From assembly GCA_949284715.1 (NCBI GenBank), contig CASDWH010000029.1, positions 62,001-126,000 on the forward strand: a stretch of DNA of 64,000 nt, written 5' to 3'. This DNA comes from an uncultured bacterium (lineage in GTDB: Bacteria; Cyanobacteriota; Vampirovibrionia; Gastranaerophilales; Gastranaerophilaceae). A program made the translations under genes and the position numbers. Shown here in pieces: positions 2,715 through 54,364 of the stretch (positions within the stretch are counted from its first letter, which is position 1; every line of letters starts with the position of its first letter). The notes below the pieces were generated by a model. That model had not been told where the DNA came from. It saw nothing but the letters and a program-made list of their open reading frames with translations, and ran no database searches.

Positions 2715-3350
2715 ATGACACTAGGTGTAATAGGAAAGAAATTAGGTATGACCCAAATCTTTAATGAAGAAGGTTTGGCAATTCCGGTTACTGTAATTAA
2801 AGTTGACAAGACTGTCGTAACTCAGGTTAAAACAGTTGAAAAAGACGGTTACAGTGCTATTCAGGTTGGTACTGTTCCAGCAAAGGAAAAACACTTAACA
2901 AAAGCAGAAATCGGCCACTTTAAAAAGAATGGTCTGGATAACTACAGGCACTTACAAGAATTTAGAGTAGAAAATTCTGAAGATTATAAAGTAGGTCAAG
3001 AAATTGATTTATCTGTGCTTGATAATATTCAAAAAGTTGATGTTACCGGAACTTCTATCGGTAAAGGTTTCCAAGGTACTGTAAAAAGATGGAACTTCTC
3101 AAGAGGGCCGATGGCTCACGGTTCTAAAAACCACAGAGAACCCGGTTCCATCGGTGCAGGTACAACCCCGAGCCGCGTTATAAAAGGCAAGAGAATGGCC
3201 GGCAACATGGGTAATGAAAGAGTTACTATTACCAAATTAAAACTGGTTAAAGTTGATAACGAAAACGGTCTGGTTTTAATAAAGGGTTCAGTACCGGGCT
3301 GTGAAGGCAGATTGGTTACAATCGTTCCTTCAAGAACTAAATGGAATTAA
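2715..3350 (+). CDS. rplC: 50S ribosomal protein L3
   Basis: L3 is an early-assembling 23S rRNA-binding protein near the peptidyl transferase centre. The start is ATG 2715 (MTLGVIGKKLGMTQIF), which has an AAAGGA site 4 bp upstream and gives the usual length of 211 aa. An open frame reaches back to 2589 (GTG), but those 42 residues have no L3 counterpart. The conserved loop GFQGTVKRWNFSRGPMAHGS is intact. A 91-bp spacer to rplD contains GC-rich hairpin sequence. Confidence 0.96.
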   Translation: MTLGVIGKKLGMTQIFNEEGLAIPVTVIKVDKTVVTQVKTVEKDGYSAIQVGTVPAKEKHLTKAEIGHFKKNGLDNYRHLQEFRVENSEDYKVGQEIDLSVLDNIQKVDVTGTSIGKGFQGTVKRWNFSRGPMAHGSKNHREPGSIGAGTTPSRVIKGKRMAGNMGNERVTITKLKLVKVDNENGLVLIKGSVPGCEGRLVTIVPSRTKWN

Positions 3351-33017: not shown

Positions 33018-33122
33018 TAGAACGAGTTCTAGATAAGATGTAGCGTGAACGAGCGAAGGCTGAAGGGCAAAATGTGAATTTTTGCCCGCAACGCCGTTTA
33101 TCGCGAGTGAGCAAGAAAAGTT
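33018..33122 (+). repeat. Solitary copy of the tRNA-associated repeat element
   Basis: AGAACGAGTTCT (hairpin mimic) is followed by GCGTGAACGAGCGAAGGC, the hairpin GGGCAAAA..TTTTTGCCC, then CCGTTTATCGCGAGTGAGCAAGA. This matches the core found after tRNA-Val, tRNA-Gly and tRNA-Arg in this window. No tRNA gene lies nearby. It sits between the two duplicated membrane protein genes; the remainder of 32865-33229 shows no supported gene. Confidence 0.6.
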
Positions 33123-44651: not shown

Positions 44652-44714
44652 CAGTCGTATATAGATTGATAAAAAAAATTTTTTGTGTAAAATAAAAGAA
44701 CAGAGAAACAATCT

Positions 44715-44787
44715 GGGCGATTGGCGCAGTTGGTAGCGCACTTGAACGACATTCAAGGGGTCACAAGTTCGAGCCTTGTATCGCCCA
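44715..44787 (+). tRNA. tRNA-Val (anticodon GAC)
   Basis: The full cloverleaf is readable: acceptor GGGCGAT/ATCGCCC, D-stem GCGC/GCGC, anticodon stem CTTGA/TCAAG with loop ACGACAT, T-stem ACAAG/CTTGT with loop TTCGAGC. CCA is not encoded. Position 33 is C where almost all tRNAs have U. Flanking bases CAATCT and AGATTG extend the acceptor helix by at least six pairs before a T-run, so the precursor itself forms a terminator-like stem. Confidence 0.9.
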
Positions 44788-44798
44788 GATTGTTTTTT
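44788..44798 (+). terminator. Terminator T-run closing the extended tRNA-Val stem
   Basis: GATTGTTTTTTT pairs partly with the tRNA leader ACAATC (44708-44713) and ends in seven T. Confidence 0.55.
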
Positions 44799-44823
44799 TG
44801 AGAAAAAAGAGAGGAATGGAAAA

Positions 44824-44972
44824 AGGCGATACAAATGGCGAGAACTTGTCAATTCAAGTTCGGCGCGAGCGAGCGGAGGCTGGAGCGATTTTGCGAAGCG
44901 TCGCAGGCGCGGGAGCAAAATGCGGAATTGCCGTTTAACGCGAGCGAGCAAGAGAAGCCTTGTATCGCCCAG
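44824..44972 (+). repeat. tRNA-associated repeat element after tRNA-Val
   Basis: From 5' to 3': GGCGATACAA (complement of the tRNA acceptor/T-arm end), hairpin GAACTTG/CAAGTTC whose second strand equals the Val T-stem 5' side plus TTCG, a 93-nt core (44863-44955) beginning GCGCGAGCGAG and ending GCGAGCGAGCAAGAGA, then AGCCTTGTATCGCCCAG (44956-44972), an exact 17-nt copy of the tRNA-Val tail. The core thus splits a T-loop copy at TTCG^A. No protein is encoded; no gene is seen in 44799-45056. Confidence 0.8.
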
Positions 44973-49107: not shown

Positions 49108-49500
49108 CTCCCGTTTTGCCTTCCGCCCTCTGCCTCCTCGCGCTCGAACCCTTAAAGCGGGTTCTCCTCCCAACAAAAAAGCACCGTAGTGCTTATTAAT
49201 AAACGGGAGACGGGACTGTCTTGCTCGTCGGCACTAAACGGGTCTACAGGCAAAAACTCCCATTTTGCCTTCCGCCCTCTGCCTCCTTGCGCTCGAACCC
49301 TTAAAGCGGGTTCTCCTCCCAACAAAAAAGCACCGTAGTGCTTATTAATAAGCGGGAGACGGGACTGTCTTGCTCGTCGGCACTAAACGGGTCTACAGGC
49401 AAAAACTCCCGTTTTGCCTTCCGCCCTCTGCCTCCTCGCGCTCGAACCCTTAAAGCGGGTTCTCATCCCAATAAAAAAAGCACCGTAGTGCTTATTAATA
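49108..49500 (-). repeat. Tandem (about 150 bp x 3) tRNA-associated repeat after tRNA-Gly
   Basis: Three copies with periods 149 and 150 bp and only a few differences. On the minus strand each unit holds the terminator AGCACTACGGTGCTTTTTT, a hairpin GAACCCGCTTTAAGGGTTCG, a 76-nt core with GGCAAAA..TTTTTGCC, and AGTCCCGTCTCCCGC, the tail of tRNA-Gly. The leftmost copy is truncated. As at tRNA-Val and tRNA-Arg, the core lies between TTCG and AGT of a T-loop copy. Short frames across it are artefacts. Confidence 0.9.
49474..49495 (-). terminator. Terminator of tRNA-Gly (also triplicated in the array)
   Basis: Minus strand: AGCAC-TACG-GTGCT then TTTTTT. The same hairpin recurs at 49175-49196 and 49324-49346. 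Confidence 0.8.
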
Positions 49501-49572
49501 AGCGGGAGACGGGACTCGAACCCGCGGCATTTTGCTTGGGAAGCAAACATTCTACCACTGAATTACTCCCGC
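49501..49572 (-). tRNA. tRNA-Gly (anticodon CCC)
   Basis: Cloverleaf on the minus strand: acceptor GCGGGAG/CTCCCGC, D-stem ATTC/GAAT, anticodon stem TTTGC/GCAAA with loop TTCCCAA, T-stem GCGGG/CCCGT, loop TTCGAGT, discriminator T. CCA is not encoded. It is followed by the triplicated element. Confidence 0.93.
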
Positions 49573-54011: not shown

Positions 54012-54103
54012 ATTAATATTATATATATAATTTTTTGTTATAAATCATTTAAACAGCTGAGAGCGGGGGGAAATTCTAATAGCCACATAAAAAATAATTG
54101 CGG

Positions 54104-54230
54104 CTGGAGGGAGTTCTATTGCTCCCTCGTGTTGAACGGGTCTACAGGCAAATCTCACGTTTTGCCCTTGGCCCCTCGCTCGGTCGCGCCGAACCCACCC
54201 GACAAGACTTTTGCCTTGTGTGGGTTCTTA
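54104..54230 (-). repeat. tRNA-associated repeat element after tRNA-Arg
   Basis: On the minus strand: hairpin AGAACCCA...TGGGTTCG (with an internal ACAAG/CTTGT stem), then a 75-nt core (54189-54115) beginning GCGCGACCGAGCGAGG and ending GAGGGAGCAATAGA, then ACTCCCTCCAG, an exact 11-nt copy of the tRNA-Arg T-loop/acceptor. The split is again TTCG^A. Identity with the Gly core is long around TTTGCCTGTAGACCCGTT. No gene is seen in 54012-54285. Confidence 0.8.
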
Positions 54231-54285: not shown

Positions 54286-54364
54286 TGGTGCGCCTGGAGG
54301 GAGTCGAACCCACGGCAGACAAGGTTTAGGAAACCTCCGCTCTATCCTACTGAGCTACAAGCGC
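54286..54364 (-). tRNA. tRNA-Arg (anticodon CCT)
   Basis: Minus strand: acceptor GCGCTTG/CAGGCGC, D-stem GCTC/GAGC, anticodon stem GAGGT/ACCTT with loop TTCCTAA, T-arm GTGGG TTCGACT CCCTC, discriminator A and encoded CCA. It reads AGG codons. Confidence 0.92.

Follow-up and report, generated by a model that had tools for sequence, protein, structure and literature searches.

Folded repeat units behind tRNA genes of Gastranaerophilales carry copies of the adjacent tRNA tail

Why should the 3' end of a tRNA gene be repeated a short distance behind the gene, on the far side of a palindromic sequence? The question is raised by tRNA-Val in the DNA analysed here (the window, a stretch of 64,000 nucleotides, C29:62001-126000 of its own genome G000, which measures 2.0 Mb). 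At this locus the tRNA is followed by a T-run, by GGCGATACAA, by the hairpin GAGAACTTG...CAAGTTCG, by a core and finally by a copy of the tRNA tail (Table 1). A preliminary description of the sequence had called that copy exact, as blastn bears out, and had placed the start of the core right after a copy of the T-stem 5' side plus TTCG; indeed, GAACTTG-TCAATT-CAAGTTCG lies directly 5' of position 44863, with GGCGATACAA farther 5'. This core, which we call core A, consists of a tandem-GA stem (GCGAGCGAGC/GCGAGCGAGC), an internal loop GTTTAA and a distal hairpin, and a 5' arm of the Val type is also present in relatives. Elements sharing the core and ending in the tail of their own tRNA had been described behind tRNA-Gly and tRNA-Arg as well. 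Both exist, the Gly tail being exact and the Arg tail (about 54100-54114) copied with one mismatch. The Arg locus is a single unit. At the Gly locus about 2.7 units, each of about 149 nt, follow one another in tandem, and unit 2 repeats the tail of unit 1 unchanged with a near-identical terminator. Allowing at most one mismatch, GCGAGCGAGCRRG occurs four times, against 0.09 occurrences expected by chance. What has to be given up is a split at one and the same T-loop bond, and with it a strict TTCG^A target, as the break point varies among loci: TTCG^ for Val, TTCGA^ at most loci and GTT^CGA at many Asp and some Gly and Ser loci.

Table 1. Positions of the tRNA genes, cores and associated features in the window
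Feature	Position	Strand	Remarks and evidence
tRNA-Val(gac)	44714..44788	+	intact; source of copied tail 44772-44788; ARAGORN and Rfam
Spacer with T-run, tRNA-Val to element	44789..44824	+	sequence reading
GGCGATACAA, reverse complement of Val tail TTGTATCGCC	44825..44834	+	predicted outer helix of three-way junction; sequence and fold
Val 5' arm hairpin GAGAACTTG...CAAGTTCG	44840..44862	+	inverted, then direct T-stem 5' side plus TTCG
Val core A	44863..44953	+	91 nt; covariance model R1 match, E 8.8e-18; covariation
Val tail copy from A58 on	44956..44972	+	exact, 17 nt, = 44772-44788; blastn
tRNA-Gly(ccc)	49501..49572	-	ARAGORN
Core A, Gly unit 1	49368..49441	-	R1 match, C29:111368-111441
Core A, Gly unit 2	49219..49292	-	R1 match, C29:111219-111292
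Core A, Gly unit 3, truncated	49108..49144	-	direct reading of sequence
tRNA-Arg(cct)	54286..54364	-	ARAGORN
Core A after tRNA-Arg	54117..54189	-	R1 match, C29:116117-116189
Fourth core A, no tRNA nearby	33043..33116	+	R1 match, C29:95043-95116

The element is not peculiar to this window. With a covariance model built from 13 cores (R1), 34 hits were obtained in the genome of the window, and 50 of 60 genomes of its family scored as well, with up to 47 hits each; the cores range from 73 to 96 nt. When genomes were drawn from the whole phylum, 78 of 85 family members had the core, whereas the 109 from outside the family gave no match. Screening GTDB contigs by pattern, a sample biased to one core subtype, yielded 80 loci whose carriers are mostly named Candidatus Gastranaerophilales. 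Two contigs with the core are labelled Fusobacterium and Acinetobacter (L116 and L126) and are probably mis-binned or mislabelled. The 113 sampled copies fall into two groups: 72 follow a tRNA or tmRNA gene at a distance of no more than 300 nt, always on the strand of that gene, and 41 lie away from tRNAs. The first copy sits 60-110 nt past the tRNA. The scoreable copies (n=70) represent 26 tRNA types plus tmRNA (one additional ARAGORN call, 'Stop(tta)', is probably tRNA-Lys), and the sequence after the core agrees with the tail of its own tRNA at 14.3 of 17 positions, compared with 8.3 of 17 for other tRNAs. Downstream tail copies were found at 36 of 45 tRNAs with a core and at 2 of 28 without one, and both of these exceptions actually have a core slightly farther away or a weaker one. 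The expectation that cores would lie behind tRNAs and carry the tail of that very tRNA thus describes most sampled copies, and the condition under which the preliminary description would have been refuted did not arise among them; in the window's own genome, about half of the 22 strongest copies adjoin tRNA tails and about half lie elsewhere.

Several copies stand in unusual surroundings. Units also occur behind the tmRNA gene, with its tail copied (L160, L146), and core-like copies lie between genes of viral contigs (L210:2526-2585, L211:8276-8351). In L089 and L090 (both at 1501-1574) the core has become part of a putative DNA methyltransferase gene, lying in frame at the C-terminal end. Several nested core variants are contained in a multi-copy repeat, about 300 bp long, that lies at the ends of contigs C23 and C12 (L027, L028) and also of C2, C25, C28 and C42 and likely breaks the assembly.

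The repeated unit comprises more than core plus tail, since it includes the terminator between tRNA and element; the equivalent of the tRNA-Val spacer belongs to the unit at other tRNAs. Its 5' arm is an inverted T-arm with GAGAA in place of TCGAA (GGGAT-GAGAACCC); a spacer hairpin comes next, then the 5' half in direct orientation, GGGTTCGA, and where the tRNA has TTCA the arm shows TTCA instead of TTCG. With 5.24 pairs, the hairpin that tracks the T-arm (P0) outscores each of 2000 permutations; helix C by itself does not outscore every one of them. In this test the frequency of tandem GA does not count as independent evidence, because the motif filter for P0 and helix C prescribes the letters GA and TTC[AG]A. 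The core is paired from one end to the other, with tandem G.A mismatches in its GCGAGCGAGC stem, and other core subtypes have the stems GACCTG/CAGGTC, GAATGC/GCATTC and GGCGGC/GCCGCC. In 89 distinct rows, 91.5% of cells are paired, against 76.0% when shuffled and 25-43% when slid, percentages that lean towards this structure because the alignment was fitted to it; in the same rows, 131 double changes stand against 46 in shuffled ones. This strong covariation backs the fold of the core. With an inverted T-arm, a hairpin and GGGTTCGA ahead of the core, a single strand can form a three-way junction, which DNA folding recovers for Val, Gly and the tyrT repeat (RtT) of E. coli. In the model, the junction can restore a T-arm duplex from which the core hairpin protrudes beside A58. 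The z-scores of the single-strand folds are -3.9 for E. coli RtT and a modest -1.5 and -1.9 for Val and Gly, and the Arg unit folds into two hairpins with the outer helix absent.

The preliminary description had suggested that the element is small, mobile or cassette-like and regenerates the tRNA, and comparison across the genus supports this. The tRNA-Val gene carries one unit in G000 and two in G029, with the same downstream flank, and is an empty site in G060 and G062. The tRNA-Arg gene is followed by core A in G000 and G064, by core B (CCTCTCGC...GCTCGGCAGAG) in G060 and G061, with a similar one in G029, and by no unit in G062 and G063. In G064 cores A and B follow each other at one Arg tRNA, and in G060 core A is nested within core B. 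Core B (CTCTCGC...GCTCGGCAGAG) is a second small palindromic repeat, found at the same position behind tRNAs and also elsewhere (L297, L298, L301, L093). Terminators of units within one array can be unrelated, and dissimilar cores can stand directly in tandem before a single tail ([GCG...CAAGACA][GCG...CAAGACA]ATCCC). Cargo was seen in only about five arrays, most units being gene-free: Fic between Asp tails on C34 and at a tRNA-Leu, a ParE toxin-antitoxin (TA) module at a tRNA-Ser, a HigBA-like one at a tRNA-Asp and a WapI-like gene at a tRNA-Leu. Together, the empty sites, the one- versus two-unit alleles, the nested and tandem cores and the cargo units point to modular, mobile units, though cargo arrays may derive instead from ordinary tRNA-site islands. 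We conclude that the element is no artefact: it is common within one bacterial family, its structure is under constraint, and in evolution it has been mobile.

The scenario that we favour, with a probability of about 0.45, is that these are tRNA-anchored, modular cassette units recombined at the T-loop. A unit would consist of the tRNA tail from A58 on, the terminator, an optional cargo gene and a folded site, the latter made of the inverted T-arm, the hairpin, the T-arm 5' strand and the core hairpin ending at about CAAGACA. It would join the tRNA gene, or an earlier unit, beside A58 in the T-loop. Since the incoming unit brings its own tail, the tRNA would remain intact and units would stack head to tail. 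We infer that the recombining partner is a folded single strand, in which the inverted and split T-arms rebuild a T-arm-like duplex, so that the tRNA T-arm would play the part of attI and the folded site that of attC, with the joining enzyme supplied in trans. Counting against this scenario are the variable break point, the few cargo arrays, the many copies off tRNAs and the fact that no recombinase was found among the FimB-like and RAYT candidates.

No named family with this layout had been known to the preliminary description, and here the E. coli tyrT repeats (178 bp; RtT, RF00391, RttR) provide one. Tandem units behind a tRNA, each with the tRNA tail, are common to both systems: in E. coli, tyrT/tyrV is followed by units of the form GGGGAAGGAT-GAGAAGCTTCGACCAAGGTTCGA-[~66-nt core]-AATCCTTCCCCCACCACCA, which include the pattern GATGAGAA...GTTCGA. 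The resemblance extends to a GGAT-GAGAA inverted T-arm with the identical GAGAA replacement, a hairpin, GGTTCGA, a GA-rich core, an AATCC tail, the split after A58 and the three-way fold. However, the core sequences are unrelated, and the E. coli copies were seen here only at tRNA-Tyr. The RF00391 covariance model matches neither the genome of the window nor three test loci, and Rfam assigns the element to no family at gathering or permissive thresholds. Thus, the unit is RtT-like in layout and not a member by the Rfam model. In phage and plasmid collections the RtT unit appears in one Salmonella record and in enterobacterial records, which is uninformative on mobility.

Other systems share some traits. 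Integron cassettes have head-to-tail arrays, imperfectly palindromic folding attC sites with variable centres and TA-type cargo. The units here stack head to tail, though only about five carry genes; the arrays are scattered at many tRNAs, the boundary is a tRNA T-arm, and a PF00589 search of the window's genome returned recombinases of the Xer-like, island and small kinds, among which inspection by eye recognised no IntI. By reading, RYYYAAC/GTTRRRY boxes are absent at the unit boundary, with GTT(T/A/C)AA in the core internal loop about 25 nt before it. REP/RAYT systems and Rickettsia palindromic elements are small palindromic repeats, some of them inside genes, and the in-frame core in the methyltransferase gene resembles the latter in style. 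GTAG-REPs have been described (PMC3733652). The core lacks a GTAG/CGTC-type tag at the hairpin foot, ending instead in GCG.../...CAAGACA, has no cognate RAYT and is flanked by tRNA-specific sequence. Membership in either the integrons or REP/RAYT is not supported. Tycheposons are likewise tRNA-bordered and cargo-carrying, but they are reported as 4-200 kb long with a tyrosine recombinase, whereas the units here span about 0.15-1.5 kb and lack one. Closer in kind are the additive flexible genomic islands of Ca. Actinomarinales, whose gene cassettes carry partial-tRNA direct repeats (PMC7771536), and the tRNA-Lys tail repeats that precede an island in Ca. Methylopumilus (PMC10872708); here too a partial tRNA repeat ends each inserted unit. 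In the parts of these accounts available to us the cassettes are larger and no folded T-loop core is described, while the Gastranaerophilales units are mostly gene-free. The kind is therefore already known; a conserved folded T-loop core across many tRNAs, and its identity with the tyrT layout, we did not find described, and our literature search returned no paper linking Gastranaerophilales and integrons and none describing the repeats.

Which enzyme could move such units? A tyrosine recombinase, of the kind known to integrate at the T-loop region of tRNA genes, was not found: a small FimB-like one does not track core number (p=0.92), and none lies inside the gene-bearing units read. Reverse transcriptase (PF00078) shows no significant association with core number either (p=0.35). 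Genomes with Y1_Tnp are richer in cores (median 7 versus 2, p=0.002, uncorrected for phylogeny), and most cores are preceded by an A, as if a RAYT/Y1 (HUH) transposase mobilised the core as a REP-like hairpin. We nevertheless regard this as very improbable, for the association is indirect: of 27 RAYT loci, a single one shows the core as a strong match, which lies about 0.8 kb off at a tRNA-Leu, the examined RAYT genes being flanked by other, GTAG-type palindromes, and G029, of the same genus, has 38 cores and no Y1_Tnp. The palindromes around the family RAYT genes, such as GTAGGGTGCAATTTATTGCACC (L258-L277; in L258 around 2721-3269), represent REP/RAYT pairs in Gastranaerophilales. A reading of the core as a phage attP was rejected, as structural or early genes flank the viral copies in L210 and L211 and the stretches read contain no integrase; a first viral pattern scan for the element gave no matches. 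In G000, an integrative element of about 7 kb on C19 (L030:726-7314), encoding a 460-aa integrase and HTH, primase-like and ATPase-like proteins, apparently displaced a tRNA tail.

It is conceivable, though somewhat unlikely, that the arrangement arose passively, the core being a REP- or RPE-like palindromic repeat, the arrays growing as homologous recombination duplicates tail and terminator in tandem, and ordinary integrase islands leaving further tails. The cores that are intergenic or at gene ends, including in phages, and in frame in the methyltransferase fit such an origin, as do the identical tandem units (L105, L166, Gly), which resemble simple duplications, and the integrase-bearing elements on C19 and in L327 (the one enclosed in L327 being separate and broken), which use the same tRNAs with plain T-arm ends. 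Simple duplication does not yield one array with different terminators, core types and cargo, however, and a passive origin sits poorly with tail copies that are almost exclusive to core-bearing tRNAs and with a 5' arm that tracks the local T-arm. Rather unlikely, too, is a structured RNA released from read-through transcripts in the manner of E. coli rtT RNA, with an end mimicking the T-arm and acceptor stem and a tail directing tRNA-type 3' processing. The layout is shared with RttR, an annotated ncRNA ending at the tRNA tail, and the covarying fold contains tandem GA, a motif reported in RtT (PMC7657543); but folded DNA fits the covariation as well, a terminator-like sequence usually lies ahead of each unit, and some cores have no tRNA beside them or are nested in core B.

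Recombination of tRNA-anchored cassettes at the T-loop, which we prefer, can be carried further. Gastranaerophilales might possess an integron-like system of folded-DNA cassettes with T-arms as entry sites, a hypothetical recombinase and the tyrT repeats as its relic or cousin, a proposal that we put forward as doubtful. To our knowledge, no clear account of where the tyrT repeats came from has existed since the 1970s. That their anatomy recurs in a distant phylum, behind 26 tRNA types and tmRNA, with cores of another kind, empty sites and cargo-bearing units, makes the question of their origin testable. Should the folded site serve as a substrate for recombination, very small cassettes, among them ones with toxin-antitoxin genes, could potentially enter at any tRNA gene.
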